Part shown: piece after piece, positions 18,868 to 47,304 of the stretch
Layout of the letters: every line of letters begins with the position of its first letter
Numbering within the stretch: position 1 is the stretch's first letter
Translations under genes and position numbers: made by a program
Origin: Syntrophomonadaceae bacterium
GTDB lineage: Bacteria > Bacillota > DSM-12270 > Thermacetogeniales > Thermacetogeniaceae
Reading direction: 5' to 3'
Length of the DNA: 47,590 nt
Assembly (NCBI GenBank): GCA_012516535.1
Contig: JAAYWP010000045.1
Span: forward strand, 1 to 47,590
The notes under the pieces: model-generated
Seen by the model: only the letters and a program-made list of their open reading frames with translations
The model's database searches: none
What the model was told of the DNA's origin: nothing

Positions 18868-21072
18868 TTATAGCTTCTTCAAAGGTGCATATTTGGCCAG
18901 CAGATGCTTAAATCCCGCGGTTTCGAAAGACACATAGACCTCCAGATCCCCACCGGGGCCGATCTTGGTTTCCATAACAACACCCCTGCCGAACTTCTTG
19001 TGCTCCACCTTTTCACCCACTTTGAACAAGCACTCCTCCTGGAGTGCTGTCACAGCTGCTGCCTCCTCTTTGCCAGCGCTGCTCTCCATTAATGCATGAT
19101 CCGCTGCTTGCTCCCGTCCACCAACTGCAACAACAGCATGAACACCCCCACCAGCTGCCACAGGACAGAGGTAGTCTTCTGGAATCTCAGATAAAAAGCG
19201 GGATGGTTCCCGAAATTCGACACTGCCATAAGATGAGCGGCGCATAGCCCTGGTAAGATAGAGCTTCTTTTTTGCCCTGGTTATTCCCACATAACAGAGC
19301 CGCCGCTCCTCCTCCAGTTCTGCCTCTTCATATAAAGCATGGGCATGTGGAAAAAGGCCCTCCTCCATTCCGGTTAAGAACACCACTGGGAATTCCATCC
19401 CCTTGGCGCTGTGGATGGTCATCAAGACAACAGCATCCTCTGAAGGCTGGTAGTTGTCAATATCAGTGACCAGAGCAAGCTCCTCTAAAAATCCGGCCAA
19501 AGACCTGTCAGTTACTGCAGAGTCATACTGCTGCGCCACAACCAAAAACTCTTTGAGGTTTTCCAGGCGGGTTTCCGCTTCAATGGTTTTTTCATTTTCA
19601 AGCATTGCCAGATATCCTGTATCTTCCAGGATCCTTTCCACCAGATCCGCGATGGACACAGCCCCATCAAGGGCCCTCCAACCATTGACCATCTTAAAGA
19701 AACCCTTGATTGCCGCCACAGCACGTGACCCGAGATCAGCCAACTCCGGGTGAGCAAGGACATCAGCAAAGGTTCTGCCTGTTCTCAATGCCGCCTCTTC
19801 CACTCGGGCGATGGTTGTATCACCTATTCCCCTTCTGGGAACATTGATGATCCTGCGCAGGGAAACCTCATCAGCTGGATTGGCCACCACCCGCAGGTAT
19901 GCCAGTATGTCTTTGATCTCTTTGCGCTCATAGAACCGCTGTCCGCCGTAAATCCGGTAAGGTATACCTGATCTGATGCATTCCTCCTCAATCGACCTGG
20001 ACTGAGAATGGGTTCGATAAAAAACCGCACAATCTCTGTATTCTGCGCTACCCTCTCTTACCAAACCCCTGATTGTTTCACCGACAAATCTCGCCTCATC
20101 TCTTTCATCCAAAGCCTGATAGAAGTAAATTGGCTCCCCTTCCCTGTTGGAGGTCCACAGCTCTTTGGGCTTTCTCCCTCTGTTATGAGAGATCAAAGCA
20201 TTAGCTGCATCGAGGATGTTCTGGGTTGAACGGTAGTTCTGCTCCAATTTGATTACACGCGCATCAGGATAATCCCGCTCAAAGTTGAGGATATTTCTGA
20301 TATCAGCTCCCCGCCAGCCGTAAATCGATTGATCATCATCCCCCACCACACAGATATTGCGCCAACTGCCAGCCAATTGATGTACCAACACATATTGGGC
20401 ATGGTTGGTGTCCTGGTATTCATCCACCATGATGTACTGAAAACGTTGCTGGTAGTGCTGCAGAACCTGGGGTTCTGACTGCAAGAGTTTTACAGTCTGC
20501 ACCAGCAGATCATCAAAATCCATCGCATTCTGCTTTAGCAGTTTCTTCTGATAAAGCGCATAAAGCTCTGCTATAGTCTCCTCCCGCACATTGCGTGCCA
20601 TTTCACTGTACTCTTCAGGGGTTACCAGCTCATTTTTTAAAATGCTGATCTCTGCCAGCACTCCCCGGGGCCGGAATTTGCGGTCATCAACCCGCAGTTC
20701 CTCGATGCAGTGTTTCATGACCGTCAGCTGGTCCGCATCATCATAAATAATAAAGCTAGGATCAAAAGGAAGATGGCGTGCCTCTCTCCTGAGAATGCGC
20801 ACAGCCATGGAATGAAAAGTGCTGATCCACACATCACGAGCATCACTGCCTACTAAATGCTGCACCCGTTCCCGCATCTCATCAGCAGCCCGATTGGTAA
20901 AGGTTACCGCCAGTATACGAAAAGGAGAGATGCCCAAACTCAATAGGTAAGCGATCCGATAGGTTAAAACCCTGGTTTTTCCACTCCCTGCACCAGCAAA
21001 AATAATCAATGGGCCTTCTGTATGTTTTACTGCAGCCAACTGCTGTGGATTTAATTCTTTTTCCCAATCCAT
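18868..21072 (-). CDS. pcrA: ATP-dependent DNA helicase PcrA/UvrD
   Basis: A superfamily 1A helicase of about 734 aa acting in repair and removal of blocks to replication. Walker A is AGAGSGKT near residue 30, motif II VDEYQDTN near 230, and the C-terminal tail holds the Tudor-like module KVEHKKFGRGVVMET found in PcrA. The ORF track starts at GTG 21081 (MIKM), but the ATG at 21072 sits 5 nt after AGGTGA and gives MDWEKELNPQQ. The stop codon of hisIE lies directly upstream, so pcrA is probably read through from the his operon. Confidence 0.96.
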   Translation of the reverse strand: MDWEKELNPQQLAAVKHTEGPLIIFAGAGSGKTRVLTYRIAYLLSLGISPFRILAVTFTNRAADEMRERVQHLVGSDARDVWISTFHSMAVRILRREARHLPFDPSFIIYDDADQLTVMKHCIEELRVDDRKFRPRGVLAEISILKNELVTPEEYSEMARNVREETIAELYALYQKKLLKQNAMDFDDLLVQTVKLLQSEPQVLQHYQQRFQYIMVDEYQDTNHAQYVLVHQLAGSWRNICVVGDDDQSIYGWRGADIRNILNFERDYPDARVIKLEQNYRSTQNILDAANALISHNRGRKPKELWTSNREGEPIYFYQALDERDEARFVGETIRGLVREGSAEYRDCAVFYRTHSQSRSIEEECIRSGIPYRIYGGQRFYERKEIKDILAYLRVVANPADEVSLRRIINVPRRGIGDTTIARVEEAALRTGRTFADVLAHPELADLGSRAVAAIKGFFKMVNGWRALDGAVSIADLVERILEDTGYLAMLENEKTIEAETRLENLKEFLVVAQQYDSAVTDRSLAGFLEELALVTDIDNYQPSEDAVVLMTIHSAKGMEFPVVFLTGMEEGLFPHAHALYEEAELEEERRLCYVGITRAKKKLYLTRAMRRSSYGSVEFREPSRFLSEIPEDYLCPVAAGGGVHAVVAVGGREQAADHALMESSAGKEEAAAVTALQEECLFKVGEKVEHKKFGRGVVMETKIGPGGDLEVYVSFETAGFKHLLAKYAPLKKL

Positions 21073-22499: not shown

Positions 22500-22567
22500 T
22501 TTTACTCCTCCTATAATCTATCTAAAATACAGACCGATCACCGAGATGGTTATGTTGCACAGCCTTA

Positions 22568-22634
22568 TATATTCCTACCGCATAGCTTTGTATATTCCTG
22601 CCTGCGCAGCGGTATATCCCTGCTGGCGCAGCGG
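22568..22634. repeat. Tandem 22-23 bp repeat, three units
   Basis: Units start at 22568, 22591 and 22613 with the core TATATTCCTGCC/TATATCCCTGCT followed by GCGCAGCGG. The unit resembles the foldback terminus TTTATCCCTGC, so the array looks like an amplified element end. Confidence 0.7.
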
Positions 22635-22902
22635 ACTGTGAAGGTTGTTACTTGCCCTTAACGAAGGAGCAGTTAACGACAGCCGAAGCAAACTCCAAAG
22701 GAAGCAGTCCCCAACTAGGCAGAACGATTACTTAATAGGAATTTCTAGATAAGAGCTGGTAATGACACCCGATTCAAATTTCAAATTCTGGCATCAGACC
22801 TACGGCATCCGACTTCTAAAATAGATGGCGTCATAGGAGCCGGTCAGCTGTCGTCTGCAGATATTATATGGGCAAGTTCAACCTGAACTTAAGCCGCAAG
22901 CA

Positions 22903-22965
22903 GCAGGATATACCGGACTGCAGGGATAAACAGAACGGCAGGATATACCGGACAGCAGGGATAAA
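22903..22965. repeat. Tandem 35-bp repeat, two units
   Basis: GCAGGATATACCGGA followed by GCAGGGATAAA occurs at 22903 and again 35 bp later at 22938, with a 1-bp deletion in the second unit. Each unit ends with the foldback terminus GCAGGGATAAA. Confidence 0.75.
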
Positions 22966-23005
22966 GCTAACAACAGCAATAAACCGAACAATCAGTGGAA
23001 CAGCT

Positions 23006-23737: not shown

Positions 23738-23806
23738 TCTAACCCCCTGAGATACTGCACAAAACATCTACGAACTCCAATCCCCATTAGGTCCGCATCC
23801 ACCCAA

Positions 23807-23830
23807 CGACTAACCACCAACCACCAATGA
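23807..23830 (-). repeat. GTTGGTGGTTAGTC-type repeat
   Basis: CGACTAACCACCAACCACCA (plus strand) lies 70 bp upstream of hisA. It belongs to the same family as the copies at 23917-23963, 36031-36058, 44479-44504 and 45657-45688. Confidence 0.7.
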
Positions 23831-23839
23831 CGCGCCCTC

Positions 23840-23908
23840 CGTCCCCCCTTGTCAAAAAGACCGTCCTTATGCTTTCATTTGTGACAGTAACCCCGTCCCC
23901 TTGTCACA
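23840..23908. repeat. GGGGACGG-type repeat pair
   Basis: On the minus strand TGACAAGGGGACGGGG and TTGACAAGGGGGGACGGAGG flank a GGACGG core. The motif family recurs at 36119-36135 and as a tandem pair at 44990-45033. Such GGGGACGG repeats are common in intergenic DNA of Clostridia. Here they fill the hisB-hisA gap. Confidence 0.6.
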
Positions 23909-23916
23909 CCCCAATC

Positions 23917-23963
23917 AACTAACCACCAGCCACCAACTACTGACGACTAACCACCAACCACCA
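23917..23963 (-). repeat. Heptad-type repeat abutting the hisB stop
   Basis: Read on the minus strand, TGGTGGTTGGTGGTTAGTCG and further GTTGGTGGCTGG units begin directly after the hisB TAA. The same type of sequence directly follows the guaA stop and, on the plus strand, follows gerXC of operon 1. Confidence 0.7.
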
Positions 23964-24551
23964 TTAAAGCTTTCCTTTAGTGGATGGGATCCCTCTTTCC
24001 CGCTCACTGAAGGCAACTGCCTCCCGCAAGGCCCGGGCAAAGCCCTTGAAAAGCACCTCAATAATATGATGGGTGTTATCCCCGCTGAGCAGATGCATGT
24101 GCAGGGTGATCCCTGCATTATTTATTATAGCTCTGAAAAACTCAGGCACCAGTTCCACCGGCAGATCCCCTGCAGCCTGTCCCGGCACTTCTACTTCATA
24201 ACTCAAAAAGGGCCTGCCGCTGAGATCCAAGGCAACAAGCGCCAGGGCTTCATCCATAGGGATCAGAGCACTGCCATACCTATTGATCCCCTTTTTATCG
24301 CCCAGTGCTTTCTGTAGTGCCATCCCCAGACAGATACCGGTATCCTCCACAGTATGATGGGCATCTACATACAGATCTCCAACCGCCTCCACACCCAGAT
24401 CAATTAAGGCATGCCGTGCCAGTAGATGCAGCATATGATCTAGAAACCCAACCCCTGTTTTACCTTCAAAGACACCGCTCCCATCAAGGTTCAGTTTTAA
24501 CTTAACACTGGTTTCAGCTGTTACCCTTTCCACTTGCGCTTCCCGCATCAT
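23964..24551 (-). CDS. hisB: Imidazoleglycerol-phosphate dehydratase
   Basis: A 195-aa monofunctional HisB. The two manganese-binding histidine motifs are DAHHTVEDTG and DNTHHIIEVLFK, and FLDHMLHLLARH is also present. The end STKGKL is typical. It overlaps hisD by 4 bp. Next in transcription would usually come hisH and hisA; here a gap filled with repeats follows before hisA. There is no histidinol-phosphatase domain. Confidence 0.97.
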   Translation of the reverse strand: MMREAQVERVTAETSVKLKLNLDGSGVFEGKTGVGFLDHMLHLLARHALIDLGVEAVGDLYVDAHHTVEDTGICLGMALQKALGDKKGINRYGSALIPMDEALALVALDLSGRPFLSYEVEVPGQAAGDLPVELVPEFFRAIINNAGITLHMHLLSGDNTHHIIEVLFKGFARALREAVAFSERERGIPSTKGKL

Positions 24552-34075: not shown

Positions 34076-34735
34076 TTACAACATATGATGCCCATTGATC
34101 ACCAAGCCAAAGCGGCAGTTAAGGAAATTGGCTGCTCGCCGGCATAAAAGCATCTTGGTCATAAAAATCTCAAAGTATTCCATAACAGAACAGATAGAGG
34201 TATCGATCTCCAGATGCATGATGATCTCCCGCTTATCTGGATCCACAGTGAGGTACGATTCCCTGGCAGCAAAGTTTACCCGGTCCCGGGTGGTGAAGGT
34301 GGCCTCATCTTCTTTACGCACCCTGCTGTAATGCACATTGGATTTATCCGCCAGAATAACTGCAGCTGCCACATTGCTCACTGCCACACCTGACCTCTCC
34401 TCATGGTTGCCGATGGCGGCGATCACAACAGCGATCTCCTCTGGAGGCATTCCCATACGCATCAACAGATGAAAGGCGATCAACGCACCGCTCCGCCCAT
34501 GTTCATACCTGTTGACCACATTACCAATATCATGCATATAGCCGGCGATAGCGGCAAGTTCAGCATCCCGCTCAGGGTAACCAAGCACCTTTAAAATACG
34601 GTAGCTGAGATTGGCTACATGGCGGGCATGTTCTTCATCATGGGTAATGGCCAGCATGGTAGACAGGTATTCATGAACCTTTTTCATGAGTACCTCTATT
34701 TCCGGGTTTTGCTGGATATCTTCAAGCTTGATCAC
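34076..34735 (-). CDS. HD-domain phosphohydrolase
   Basis: A 219-aa protein with a metal-dependent HD domain: His in EEHARHVANLS, the His-Asp pair in GYMHDIGNVVNRYEHG, His in GNHEERSG and Asp in ILADKSNVHYSR. Such proteins hydrolyse nucleotides or other phosphate esters, and the substrate cannot be read here. The GTG start overlaps the purD stop by 4 bp, so it is the last gene of the purine operon. That suggests, but does not prove, a nucleotide-related role. The C-terminal 30 residues, rich in Cys and hydrophobic residues, are not part of the HD fold. Confidence 0.82.
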   Translation of the reverse strand: MIKLEDIQQNPEIEVLMKKVHEYLSTMLAITHDEEHARHVANLSYRILKVLGYPERDAELAAIAGYMHDIGNVVNRYEHGRSGALIAFHLLMRMGMPPEEIAVVIAAIGNHEERSGVAVSNVAAAVILADKSNVHYSRVRKEDEATFTTRDRVNFAARESYLTVDPDKREIIMHLEIDTSICSVMEYFEIFMTKMLLCRRAANFLNCRFGLVINGHHML

Positions 34736-36009
34736 TTAACTACCCCCTTTTTTAGGGCGCGATGGGCAATATCCCTGCGGTAATGGATCCCCTCAAAATA
34801 AATTTTCTCCACTCCGGAATATACTCTCTTCACAGCCTCCTCAATAGTTGCGCCAAAGCCTGTAATGCCCAGCACCCTTCCCCCACTGGTTACCAGCTTC
34901 CCATCAGACAGAGCGGTACCAGCATGAAAAACCAAAATATCTGAAGGGAGTTCATCAAGACCGGTAATCACTTTACCCTTTTCATATGCTCCCGGATAGC
35001 CGCCTGAAGCTGCTACAACACAAACAGCAGCCCTGGGGTCCCACTCCAGTTCTACCTCATCTAAGCGCTCTTCGATAACAGCATTCATCACTTCCAACAG
35101 ATCTGATTTAAGACGGGGTACAACCACCTGTGTTTCGGGATCACCGAAACGGCAGTTGAACTCTAAGACATAGGGACCCTCACTGGTGACCATCAAACCA
35201 GCATAAATAACACCCTTATATTAAATACCATCATCAGCCAAGCCGTAGATAACCGGTTCCAGTATATCTTTCACAGCTTTCTCATGGAGATCACTGGTAT
35301 AAACAGGTGGTGGGGAATAGGCACCCATCCCTCCGGTATTTGGCCCCTCATCTCCGTCAAAAACTCGTTTATGGTCCTGGGATGCTGCCAGTGTTTTAAT
35401 AGTTTTGCCATCTGTAAATGCCAGGACACTAACTTCCTCTCCCTGGAGAAGCTGTTCCACAACAACTGCTTTACCAGCATCCCCAAAAGCCCTTTCTTCC
35501 ATGATCAAACGGACAGCCTGCTCTGCCTCTTCTCTATTTTTGGCTATAATCACACCTTTACCTGCTGCCAATCCGTCAGCTTTCACCACACATGGCCTGT
35601 TAAGTTCTCTTACAAACTCAAGGGCTGCAGCAGCATCATAGAAAACCCTATACGCAGCTGTAGGAACACCGTATCTGGTCATTTTCTCTTTGGCAAAAAC
35701 CTTACTTCCTTCTAAACGCGCTGCTTTTGCATCAGGCCCGAAAACCTTGAGACCCCGTGATTTAAAGAGGTCCACAATCCCTGCGGCAAGAGGGGCCTCC
35801 GGCCCTACTACAGTCAGATTAATCCTTTGCTCCTGGGCAAAATCAGCCAGTCCATGTAAATCCTCAGCTGCCAAGGGAACGCATTCCGCATCCCCGGCAA
35901 TACCCCCATTTCCAGGAGCACAGTAGATTTTATCCACATGGGAGCTTTGTTTCAGCTTCCAGACCAAAGTGTGTTCTCTTCCTCCCCCACCTACAACCAG
36001 AACCTTCAT
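34732..36009 (-). pseudogene. purD: Phosphoribosylamine-glycine ligase, interrupted by in-frame TAA
   Basis: PurD (GAR synthetase) joins phosphoribosylamine and glycine. The frame is open from the ATG at 36009 (MKVLVVGGGGREHTL; AGGAGG 6 nt upstream) through the ATP-grasp motifs (PCVVKADGLAAGKGV, GPNTGGMGAYSPPP) to a TAA at 35221-35223. It continues in the same frame as YKGVIYAGLMV, EFNCRFGDPETQ and the normal C-terminus. The stop replaces the residue before the conserved Y-K-G-V, so nothing else is missing. The ORF track shows two pieces, 35221-36060 and 34732-35196. A single-base nonsense change or sequencing error is likely because the enzyme is essential for purine synthesis. Confidence 0.9.
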
Positions 36010-36030
36010 CATATACCTCCTCATATTGTA

Positions 36031-36058
36031 GTTAGTCGTTAGTCGTTGGTCGTTAGTC
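36031..36058 (+). repeat. GTTAGTC heptad tandem array, four units
   Basis: GTTAGTC, GTTAGTC, GTTGGTC, GTTAGTC run without gaps just upstream of the purD ribosome-binding site. The ORF track extends purD into this array (MTNDQRLTTNYN), which shows that the upstream start is an artefact. Confidence 0.85.
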
Positions 36059-36118
36059 ATTTGTTTTGTTGGTATTTGCTCGGTAAATTCCTTCTCTATC
36101 TAACCGCTAACGACTACC

Positions 36119-36135
36119 GCGGGAACCGTCCCCGA
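36119..36135 (-). repeat. GGGGACGG-type motif
   Basis: On the minus strand TTCGGGGACGGTTCCCG carries the GGGGACGG core shared with the hisB-hisA gap and with the tandem pair at the end of purE. Confidence 0.5.
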
Positions 36136-36174
36136 ACTGTTCTGCTTATCGGTTTCAGCGCAGCAGAACCTCGG

Positions 36175-36377
36175 TTTATCCCTGCGCTTGCTCTTTAGGC
36201 TCAGGTTGAACTTGCCCTAAGACTCCTCGCAGACGACAGCTGACCGGCTCCTATGACGCCATCCATGGCGCAGAGTCGCCTAGCTCAACATCCATGTTGA
36301 GCTTCAGCTGTCGTTAACTGCTCCTTCGTCAAGGGCAAGTAACAACCTTCGCAGGTCGCTGCGCTTGCAGGGATAAA
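36175..36377 (+). repeat. Foldback (MITE-like) element, copy B
   Basis: A 203-bp element whose two halves pair in nested order. The termini TTTATCCCTGC (36175-36185) and GCAGGGATAAA (36367-36377) pair over 11 bp, then ACTTGCCCT/AGGGCAAGT (36210-36218/36332-36340), then ACGACAGCTGA/TCAGCTGTCGT (36233-36243/36304-36314), and the tip AGCTCAACAT/ATGTTGAGCT (36282-36291/36294-36303). It shares arms with copies A and C but has a different interior. It lies between purH and purD. Confidence 0.85.
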
Positions 36378-36442
36378 CCAAGTATCGTAAAGCCAAAACC
36401 CCGTAGTAGCTCCTTGTTTATCTCTGTACTCAGCGCCGCTGT

Positions 36443-38041
36443 TTAATGTTTGAAATGCCGCCTCCCGGTAAAGACCATTGCCATCCCCACCGCATCTGCG
36501 GCTTTGATGACCTCCTCATCCCTGATCGAACCACCGGGCTGGATCAATGCTTTAATACCGCTCTTGGCTGCATATTCAATGGTATCAGGGAAAGGTAAAA
36601 ATCCATCAGAAGCTATCACTGCGCCATCTGCTTGCTCTCCTGCTTTTTCTAAAGCTATCCTGGCAGCAGCTACACGGCTCACCTGTCCCCCACCGATACC
36701 CAGGGTCTGCCTCCCTTTTGCCACCACAATAGCATTGGAAAAAACGTGTTTAGCAACGATCCAGGAAAAGATCAGATCATCCCATTCCTCTTCAGATGGG
36801 TCCCTTTTCGTAACAACCTTGAGCTGATGACGCCAACTGCTCAAATCCCCCAAACTGTCCGGATCTTGTATTAAAAAGCCGCCGCTTACCCTTTTCACAC
36901 TTAATTCTCTTTTCAGATCAGCAAACTCTCCTGTGCTTAGAACCCGCAAGTTTTTCTTTCCCCTGAGAATAGCAAGGGCATCTTCACTATAAGCTGGAGC
37001 AATAACTGCCTCCAGGAATGTTTCCGCCAACGCTGCCGCAGTTTCCTTATCCACTGTACGGTTGAGGCCCACAATCCCGCCATAAGCAGCTATAGGATCA
37101 GCATTATAAGCCTTCCTGTAGGCACCCACCAGAGCGTTGGAGCAAGCCACACCTGATGGAGTGTTGTGTTTGATCACAACAGCAGCGGGGACCTCAAACT
37201 CTGATACGGTTGTCAAGGCAGCATCCAGGTCCAGGATATTATTAAAAGAAAGTTCCTTGCCGTGAAACTGCCGGGCACTAGCTAAACCATAGGGCCTGCT
37301 TGTTTCTTCCCTGTAAAAAGCAGCCTCCTGATGGGGGTTTTCACCATAGCGCAGATCACGGATCTTCACCATAGGCAGCAGCATCCTCATTGGGAACTTT
37401 CCGCTCTCCGCTGCTTTGAGCTCCCCTTCCTCAACCCTGACAGCTGTTAAATAATTGGAAATAGCAGCATCATATTGTGCTGTATGCCAGAAGGCCTCCT
37501 GAGCCAATTCAAGCCTGGTAGACAGGCTGATCTCACCCTGGGAACGGAGTTCCTCTATAATCTGGTCATAGCGGTTGGGATTGACCACCACCGCCACTCT
37601 GGGGAAATTTTTAGCAGCAGCCCTTACCATAGTTGGGCCGCCGATATCGATCTGTTCCAGTGCTTCACACACCGGCAGACCTGTCTTGGCGATGGTCCTC
37701 TGAAATGGATAAAGGTTAATAACAACCAAACTGAAGGGTTCGATCCCCAATTCCTCCAGTTGAGCCTGGTCCTCAGGTAGATCCCGTGCCAGGATGCCGG
37801 CATGAACGGCCGGGTGCAGTGTTTTCACACGTCCCCCTAGAATCTCGGGAAAATTAGTTACCTTTTCCACATGCTGGACTTCAACCCCAGCCTCCTCAAG
37901 GGTGCGTGCTGTTCCACCTGTGGACACTATATGAAAGCCCAGTTCTACCAGGGCTTTTCCAAATTCGACAATCCCTTGTTTATCAGATACACTGATTATC
38001 GCTCTTTTGTTGGCCTGTTTTAAACCTGTTCCTTCATTCAC
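36443..38041 (-). CDS. purH: Bifunctional AICAR formyltransferase / IMP cyclohydrolase
   Basis: A 532-aa PurH catalysing the last two steps to IMP. The N-terminal MGS-like cyclohydrolase domain has AIISVSDKQGIVEFG, HIVSTGGTARTLEEAG and LGGRVKTLHPAVHAGIL. The formyltransferase domain has RYGENPHQEAAFY and the catalytic Lys-His in IKHNTPSGVA. It overlaps the purN stop by 8 bp and is separated from purD by a 433-bp repeat-filled gap, whereas in Bacillus purH and purD are adjacent. Confidence 0.97.
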   Translation of the reverse strand: MNEGTGLKQANKRAIISVSDKQGIVEFGKALVELGFHIVSTGGTARTLEEAGVEVQHVEKVTNFPEILGGRVKTLHPAVHAGILARDLPEDQAQLEELGIEPFSLVVINLYPFQRTIAKTGLPVCEALEQIDIGGPTMVRAAAKNFPRVAVVVNPNRYDQIIEELRSQGEISLSTRLELAQEAFWHTAQYDAAISNYLTAVRVEEGELKAAESGKFPMRMLLPMVKIRDLRYGENPHQEAAFYREETSRPYGLASARQFHGKELSFNNILDLDAALTTVSEFEVPAAVVIKHNTPSGVACSNALVGAYRKAYNADPIAAYGGIVGLNRTVDKETAAALAETFLEAVIAPAYSEDALAILRGKKNLRVLSTGEFADLKRELSVKRVSGGFLIQDPDSLGDLSSWRHQLKVVTKRDPSEEEWDDLIFSWIVAKHVFSNAIVVAKGRQTLGIGGGQVSRVAAARIALEKAGEQADGAVIASDGFLPFPDTIEYAAKSGIKALIQPGGSIRDEEVIKAADAVGMAMVFTGRRHFKH

Positions 38042-44371: not shown

Positions 44372-44478
44372 CTCCTATACCTCCTTAGTGCCAGGCTTGC
44401 TTTATTGCCTTTTTCAAAACGGTGCCATTAACAGTACCAATTTTGCTTTATTGTCTTATTTACCATCCCTATATTCTA

Positions 44479-44504
44479 ACGACTAACCACCAACTTCCAA
44501 CTTG
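44479..44504 (-). repeat. GTTGGTGGTTAGTC-type repeat
   Basis: AACGACTAACCACCAACTTCC on the plus strand belongs to the family seen at 23807, 23917, 36031 and 45657. Confidence 0.6.
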
Positions 44505-44585
44505 CCAGGCTTGCCTGATTGCTTTATTTATACGACCCATCATGGGGATTGTCCCCGCGGCCCTATCGACTATACTTATCTTTTC

Positions 44586-44610
44586 TCCGACCTCCGACTT
44601 CCGGCATCCA
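44586..44610 (-). repeat. Dispersed GTCGGA/GCCGGA-type motif
   Basis: On the minus strand GGATGCCGGAAGTCGGAGG is related to the interior of foldback copies A and C and to the motif at 10346-10376. Confidence 0.5.
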
Positions 44611-44720
44611 ACCTCTATTTCAGCCAGGCTTGTTTTATTGCCTTTTCACAATGCTGTTTGTGTTTTATTGCTTAATTATTACCCGCCGGTTCCTCCGCCC
44701 ATTTGCTTCGCGATCTTCGA

Positions 44721-44932
44721 TTTATCCCTGCCGCTTGTCACATAAGCTCCAGTTTAACTTGCCCTAAGACTCCTCGCTTTCATAGCAAACCGCACCCTAT
44801 GACGCCATCCATTTTAGAAGTCGGATGCCGGAGGTCTGAGGCCAGAATTTGAAATTTGAATCAGGTGTCATTACCCCTTCGTCAACGGCAAGCAACAACC
44901 CTCGCAAGTCGCTGCGCGCTAGCAGGAATAAA
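44721..44932 (+). repeat. Foldback (MITE-like) element, copy C
   Basis: 212 bp running from TTTATCCCTG to GCAGGAATAAA. The arms AACTTGCCCTAAGACTCCTCG and CGTCAACGGCAAGCAACAACC match copy B closely. The interior at 44796-44873 matches copy A (inverted) at 74 of 78 positions. It lies in the purE-purS gap. Confidence 0.82.
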
Positions 44933-44989
44933 AATTGCTCAGAGAAGATGCTTCTCATAATCGGTCAATCCATCCTCCTGATCGCTCGT

Positions 44990-45033
44990 GAGTCAAAGTC
45001 ACCGTCCCCTTGAGTCAAAGTCACCGTCCCCCT
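44990..45033 (-). repeat. 22-bp tandem pair that supplies the 3' end of purE
   Basis: GAGTCAAAGTCACCGTCCCC occurs at 44990 and 45012 (22-bp units with one or two differences). On the minus strand the unit reads GGGGACGGTGACTTTGACTC. The purE stop TGA (45023-45021) and its last codons (ESGGR) come from this repeat, so insertion or slippage has set the end of the protein. Confidence 0.85.
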
Positions 45034-45689: not shown

Positions 45690-46658
45690 CTACTCCCACT
45701 CAATTGTTCCTGGCGGTTTTGATGTGATATCATAAAGCACCCTGTTGACACCCGGAACCTCACGGACAATACGGCTGGCTATCTGATCCAGGAGATCATG
45801 GGGCAGGTGTGCCCATTTTGCGGTCATGGCATCTTCACTATTGACAGCACGGATGACTATGGGGTGAGCATAAGTGCGTTCTCCATCAGAGACCCCCACA
45901 CTCCTGACCGGCAGCAAAACAGCAAAATACTGCCAGATCTCTCTACCCAAGCCAGCTTTTTGGATTTCCTCCCTTAAGATATAATCAGCTTCCCGCACCA
46001 TGGTGAGCTTTTCCTCTGTTACTTCACCCAGGACACGAACCGCCAGGCCAGGTCCAGGGAAGGGTTGGCGCCAAATAACATCTCTGGACAGACCCAATTC
46101 CTCACCGATGAGGCGCACCTGATCCTTGTACAACTCACGCAGAGGTTCCAGCAGCTTAAGTTTCATATCCTCAGGGAGGCCACCCACATTATGATGGCTC
46201 TTCACTACACCTGCTGCGTTTTTCCCCGATTCGATTACATCAGGGTAGATTGTACCCTGCAGAAGGAATTGAAAATCACCCAGCCGGGCGGCTTCCTCCT
46301 GAAACACATTGATAAATTCATTGCCTATAATCTTCCTTTTTCTTTCCGGGTCTGTTACACCCGCTAATTTATTCAGGAACCGCTCCTTGGCATCAACAGT
46401 GATGGTATTAACACCCACATGCCGGAGAATCTCTGTCACCTGTTCCCGCTCGCCTTTTCTCAACAGTCCGTGGTCAACAAAAATACAGGTTAACTGATCT
46501 CCAATTGCCCGCTGTACCAAAGCTGCAGCAACTGTGGAATCGACTCCTCCGCTCAGCCCTCCCACAACCCTGCTCTTACCGACGGTTTTTCTGATAGAAG
46601 AGAGCTGTTCTTCGATAAACTCAGCCGGTGTCCAATTCCTGCCCTTTTGTTTATTCAC
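45690..46658 (-). CDS. guaA: GMP synthetase, ATP pyrophosphatase part only (no glutaminase domain)
   Basis: A 322-aa protein matching only the C-terminal two-thirds of bacterial GuaA, which is about 510 aa. The P-loop [10 protein letters not shown] is at about 33-42. [20 protein letters not shown] and the dimerisation end [13 protein letters not shown] are intact. The N-terminal class I glutaminase domain is absent, and the start overlaps the hpt stop by 8 bp, so it cannot be just upstream. The start [20 protein letters not shown] corresponds to the linker that follows the glutaminase in fused bacterial enzymes, which suggests deletion from a fused ancestor. It should aminate XMP with free ammonia, or with a glutaminase subunit encoded elsewhere. 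Confidence 0.92.
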
Positions 46659-47214
46659 GAGCCAGTTCCTCCTTAGTTAGGCATTTATCCCCACACTCCT
46701 GATGAAGAATGTAGATATTGGGAAGATTGCGATAGCGCTGAGCACAGTCCAACCCATAACCCACAACAAAGTAATCGGGAATAGTAAAACCATTGTAATC
46801 AGGGGTAAAATCCACCTTGCGCCTACTGGGTTTGTCTAGAATGGTGCAAACCCTTAGGCTGGCAGGACCCCTGGCCTCAAGGGTTTTACAAAGGTATTTC
46901 AGTGTTAATCCAGTGTCGATGATATCCTCCACTAAAAGCACATGCTTGCCGGTGATTGTTTCATCCAGGTCTTTGAGGATTCTGACAACACCGGAGCTGA
47001 CAGTATCATCCCCATAACTGGATACTGCAACAAAATCTATGATCACCGGCATCTCTAAATTGCGCACCAAATCGGCCATAAAGACAAAAGCACCCCGTAG
47101 GATGCCTACCACCAGGAGTTCTTTTCCTTGATAATCCCGGTTGATCTGTTCGGCCAATTCCTTCACTTTTGACCGCAGTTGCTCTTCTGTAAAGAGTATT
47201 TCAAGTTTTTCCAA
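46651..47214 (-). CDS. hpt: Hypoxanthine(-guanine) phosphoribosyltransferase
   Basis: A salvage enzyme of about 187 aa converting hypoxanthine or guanine with PRPP to IMP or GMP. It has [32 protein letters not shown], the PRPP loop [14 protein letters not shown] and [19 protein letters not shown]. The ORF track start at 47229 is GTG-rich; TTG at 47214 lies 5 nt after GGGAG and is the better start, though the exact codon is uncertain. It overlaps guaA by 8 bp, giving a purine salvage and GMP unit. An extended -10 promoter lies upstream. Confidence 0.94.
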
Positions 47215-47304
47215 GCACACTCCCACCAATCTGTTATACCTAGTATTTCCTCATTAACAAAAAAGTTATTAAAGAAGCACCTATTTCAAAAAAAATCAAG
47301 TCAT

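Follow-up and report, generated by a model that had tools for sequence, protein, structure and literature searches.

The window analysed here, a stretch of 47,590 nucleotides from a Syntrophomonadaceae contig, carries a foldback sequence between purH and purD (copy B) and two relatives in other biosynthetic gaps (copies A and C), which raises the question of what kind of element this is and what its RNA might do. The nested complementary arms described for copy B in an initial annotation are real: the outer inverted repeat (36170-36185/36367-36382) is 16 nt long and 94% complementary, with further arms nested inside, and the near-perfect foldback is far more stable than shuffled sequence (z of about -9.8, i.e., -9.9 and -9.7 for the two strands; 0 of 200 shuffles equally stable). 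Its bounds had been drawn too tightly, as 36175-36377 lies within a repeat that spans about 36170-36382 (213 bp). Copy B contains no transposase, none of the listed ORFs of 100 aa or more lies within it, and neither a promoter nor a terminator was found in it. The placement of the copies in gaps of his and pur operons was confirmed, with hisA/hisF (copy A), purH/purD (copy B) and purE/purQ (copy C) as neighbors, all on the minus strand (Table 1); purS is probably located between copy C and purQ. The purD gene consists of two adjacent minus-strand ORFs (window 34732-36060; model positions 1-264 and 275-424), which suggests that the reading frame is interrupted near 35200 by a frameshift or an error of sequencing.

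Table 1. Repeat copies in the window, parts of copy B, and its neighboring genes.
Feature	Window position	Strand	Remarks
Copy A, between hisA and hisF	22611..22932	+	Arms kept; antisense to operon
purD, N-terminal part	35221..36060	-	Downstream neighbor of copy B
Copy B, whole repeat	36170..36382	-	RNA sense is minus strand, same as pur operon
Copy B terminal inverted repeat, RNA 3' side	36173..36185	-	GCAGGGATAAACC
Copy B match to Rfam RF01731 (TwoAYGGAY)	36197..36354	-	Model 1-168; 52.2 bits (cut-off 43)
Copy B hairpin 2	36256..36271	-	GCGCC-AUGGAU-GGCGU; CsrA-type loop
Copy B hairpin 1	36282..36303	-	AGCUCAAC-AUGGAU-GUUGAGCU; CsrA-type loop
Copy B terminal inverted repeat, RNA 5' side	36367..36379	-	GGTTTATCCCTGC
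purH	36443..38041	-	Upstream neighbor of copy B
Copy C, between purE and purQ	44717..44932	-	Arms kept; core replaced as in copy A

Copy B belongs to the TwoAYGGAY RNA family (RF01731): its minus strand matches the full Rfam model above the gathering score and forms two adjacent hairpins with AYGGAY terminal loops. The initial description as a MITE- or REP-like foldback captured neither this membership nor the two CsrA-type GGA hairpins. The table entry for TwoAYGGAY, reported as an RNA with no known function, is y (RNA), n, n (Weinberg et al., 2010, PMC2864571), which likely stands for a probable RNA that is neither cis-regulatory nor a switch. Two CsrA-binding motifs were noted in TwoAYGGAY RNA, and a CsrA-binding sRNA in Clostridia was predicted (Gardner and Eldai, 2014, PMC4333381). 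CsrA-titrating RNAs in Clostridia have hitherto been predicted only. The sections of these reports that treat the family make no mention of mobility, terminal repeats or terminator targeting. The evidence discussed below makes it probable that RF01731 as a family represents a transposon-like repeat dispersed in many copies, and that copy B is part of a mobile and structured repeat offering paired, predicted CsrA sites on transcription.

The family seen in the window extends to the rest of the genome, as a search of the whole assembly identified 15 stretches matching copy B, or about 11 copies. Copy A aligns with copy B in two blocks (22611-22689 and 22821-22915, at 90% and 82%), and copy C (44717-44932) matches it at 70%. 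Both share the arms of copy B, as initially noted, and lack its central two-hairpin core, which in copy A is replaced by a longer unrelated insert common to other copies (G000:C47, C48); copies A and C score below the RF01731 cut-off. In the Rfam orientation copies B and C are sense to the operon and copy A is antisense. Most copies in this genome, A and C included, have lost at least one of the two hairpins; the copies cannot therefore all serve as CsrA sites. Further short dispersed repeats occupy the same intergenic gaps (44390-44646, 23806-23970, 44989-45032; GCCAGGCTTGCTTTATTGC, ACGACTAACCACCAAC, TGAGTCAAAGTCACCGTCCCC).

Of 101 related genomes, 14 have relatives at the DNA level, frequently with eight copies or more. 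Within the phylum, RF01731 matches were found in 31 of 200 and 40 of 399 genomes, where many sites per genome are common. In several families the element copies have sharp ends. The exact two-hairpin core ACATGGATGT-N12..30-GCCATGGATGGC occurs at least 119 times in a species-level genome collection (about one occurrence expected by chance in evenly composed sequence, by our own arithmetic). Among the matches listed, the hosts include Pseudomonas, Luteimonas, Lysobacter, Shewanella, Photobacterium, Methylobacter, Spirochaetota, Desulfobacteraceae, Lachnospiraceae and others, often with several per genome; two core matches lie on one contig of the MAG Clostridia bacterium DTU068. In the Proteobacteria MAG C1.bin.13 (L304 and L312) the outer arms of the core copies differ between copies and pair within each, and look as if derived from the target.

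Across 13 lineages the stem sequences of hairpin 1 differ yet pair: positions 6-8 are paired in 92-100% of the distinct sequences, against 41-50% when the 3' arms are shuffled. Pairing at positions 1-3 and an A(N)GGA loop were prerequisites of that search and alone are no evidence. The A(N)GGA(N) loop has a closing C-G pair in 37 of 40, both AUGGAU loops of copy B are closed in this way, and alignments of the elements show A(N)GGA loops at a corresponding position in each lineage. Within the family to which the window belongs, among 65 copies chosen by overall DNA similarity, both GGA motifs are present in 57 and the first in 63; the conservation of these columns is not unique, since about 12% of windows of three columns equal it. 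A(N)GGA loops closed by C-G correspond to the recognition pattern of CsrA, and binding of CsrA is predicted on this basis.

The distribution of csrA (PF02599) is consistent with this prediction. The gene was found in 38 of 40 element-bearing genomes vs. 246 of 359 other genomes of the phylum (Fisher p = 1e-4), in 31 of 32 vs. 164 of 235 when counted by genus (p = 3e-4), and in 9 of 9 vs. 4 of 10 within the window's own family (p = 0.008), a co-occurrence that is a correlation. A search for csrA gave no match in the window's own MAG, which is 82% complete and whose three congeners all have the gene, nor in the element-bearing genome G197. Given this co-occurrence, the published CsrA hypothesis can be tested directly; as binding is a prediction, we do not file copy B as a CsrA sRNA.

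Mobility is most evident in other lineages. The distant genome G136 has 27 copies in which both ends (CAGACTGTNGACAAA) are present and which are flanked left and right by duplicates of an intrinsic-terminator hairpin. The longest exact stretch shared by the left and right flanks of a copy has a median of 17 nt and reaches at least 10 in 23 of 27, compared to a median of 5 and a maximum of 9 for 702 mismatched flank pairs, and a hairpin is found on both sides in 25 of the 27 copies. In the listed examples the left terminator duplicate keeps few T residues and the right keeps more (in G136, a mean of 1.8 and 3.7, respectively, in the 8 nt after the hairpin). A-tracts occur equally often ahead of the left hairpin. 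The terminators may therefore be bidirectional, and read-through transcription into the element is putative. The same ends delimit an IS1182-family insertion sequence in the viral contig L239 (NF033551, E 8e-138) and, in G049, a repeat with a duplicate of one terminator on either side; in G167, which belongs to the genus of G136, IS1182 copies with three differences in their ends lie directly behind terminator hairpins. IS1182 ends and duplicated terminators thus indicate a MITE-like transposon in these lineages, and, judged by its sequence, the element of the G136, G127 and G049 lineages is an IS1182-type MITE in behavior, aimed at terminators. Pairing of IS1182-like ends in G136 recovered short elements only and no full insertion sequence, and the autonomous one in G049 is represented by contig ends only, the remainder being lost in assembly gaps. 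IS1182-like genes in G005 and G007 were considered as a source and rejected, their ends bearing no resemblance to the repeat.

A purely selfish MITE, whose palindrome and hairpins would be recognized as DNA by a transposase acting in trans and whose RNA would be functionless, could account for the terminal repeats, the terminator duplications and the IS1182 link of these other lineages, as well as for a near-random orientation and the loss of hairpins from several copies. Transposition through the ends alone, as we infer it, would leave unexplained why the A(N)GGA loops are invariant on the different stems of 13 lineages, and why the element co-occurs with csrA; we regard this explanation as rather unlikely. 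At the other extreme, the curation of RF01731 as an RNA family and the CsrA-binding sRNA proposed by Gardner and Eldai (2014, PMC4333381) would fit a dedicated family of trans-acting sRNA genes with their own promoters, not mobile, but the copies are dispersed at unrelated sites with terminator duplications and no promoter was found in copy B, which makes such a family highly improbable.

In the genus of the window, the copies differ from IS1182-family MITEs such as those of G136, G127 and G049, which match IS1182 elements in their ends and have duplicated target terminators. The ends here read TTTATCCCTGC, no target duplication was found in 26 copies and no IS1182 gene in the four genomes of the genus (G000-G003); an IS1182 parent with the same ends was found for the CAGACTGTNGACAAA lineages only. 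Copy B thus combines inverted ends, a short length and the lack of a transposase gene with the absence, in its genus, of a target site duplication and of such a parent, and is for the latter reason called MITE-like and not filed as a MITE. Of the MITE-like family proposed in the initial annotation, the dispersal, the defined ends and the lack of an own transposase stand, and target duplications and an IS1182 gene are not found in this genus; the suggestion that the copies were mobilized from elsewhere finds its IS1182 link in other lineages only.

Sites A (G001, G003) and B (G001-G003) are occupied in every congener examined, and copy C is absent in G002 only. Relative to G000 and G002, the orientation of copy B with about 50 nt of flank (window 36061-36442) is reversed in G001 and G003. 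Copy A (window 22500-23005) has the opposite orientation in G001 and G003 from that in G000, and at a given site the inner type (two hairpins present or absent) switches between congeners. The copies of the window are therefore old and have been remodeled in place. In the related genera represented by G005, G007, G012 and G016 the repeat has extra outer modules, and in G008 the outer arm is different and still pairs.

These comparisons also bear on a role in cis, in which the repeat would be an attenuator, RNA processing site or stabilizer tuning the downstream pur and his genes. Copies A, B and C do occupy gaps in operons, 20 of the 23 copies in the genus that could be classified are located between co-directional genes, and the fold is very stable. 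The orientation of the copies relative to genes is nevertheless near random, in G136 and in the window's own genus, with copy A antisense, and both orientation and internal type change at the same site between congeners. Near-random orientation, the lack of a terminator or promoter in copy B and inversion in place argue against a cis-regulatory role, so that attenuation, as suggested earlier, or terminator function finds no support in the sequence, and a cis-acting element of any of these kinds appears improbable.

For the preferred reading, a mobile repeat with paired CsrA sites, the following mechanism can be proposed. The DNA repeat would spread as a non-autonomous element, and in the G136, G127 and G049 lineages the sequences show that it uses IS1182-type ends and enters intrinsic terminators, duplicating them, whereby copies end up toward the 3' end of a transcription unit. 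The copies in the genus of the window are old and lie in operon gaps. Sense copies would be transcribed by read-through, the RNA is predicted to fold into a long stalk with two adjacent A(N)GGA hairpins, and one CsrA dimer could clamp both. Many transcribed copies would then titrate CsrA as a sponge; a single copy could also alter the stability or translation of its host mRNA, for which the case is weaker. Genomes may in this way scatter CsrA-binding RNA through their operons. More tentatively, and with less confidence than in the repeat itself, we suggest a transposon-borne CsrA sponge in several phyla, in which repeats would enter terminators, leave termination intact and add CsrA sites to 3' untranslated RNA.

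If the sponge reading is true, the free level of the global regulator CsrA would be set by how many copies of a selfish element there are and where they lie, and an Rfam family of unknown function (RF01731) would become a mobile element. A small repeat would target and duplicate terminators, so that termination may be kept, and CsrA networks of Clostridia might gain or lose sites by way of transposition.

Several known systems resemble parts of this arrangement. The family of copy B would behave like MITEs that have a structured RNA as cargo. Like CsrB/CsrC and RsmX/Y/Z, the element has paired A(N)GGA hairpins and occurs mostly where csrA is present; it differs in having two sites per copy, many dispersed copies, no promoter found, and binding that is predicted. 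The pneumococcal BOX, RUP and SPRITE repeats (PMC10969869) and the Coxiella QMITE (PMC5896051) are likewise dispersed, structured small repeats, some of which are transcribed as small RNAs; the likeness is one of description, and these papers do not mention CsrA. Searches of open-access papers yielded no account of mobile repeats that carry CsrA sites.

Some further observations concern other parts of the window. The guaA ORF (45690-47229) matches positions 192-512 of GMP synthase only, the amidotransferase half being absent, and the ORF next to it encodes a hypoxanthine phosphoribosyltransferase. A sub-threshold match to Rfam n00280 on the minus strand (19244-19341) lies inside a helicase-like gene and probably reflects coding conservation.
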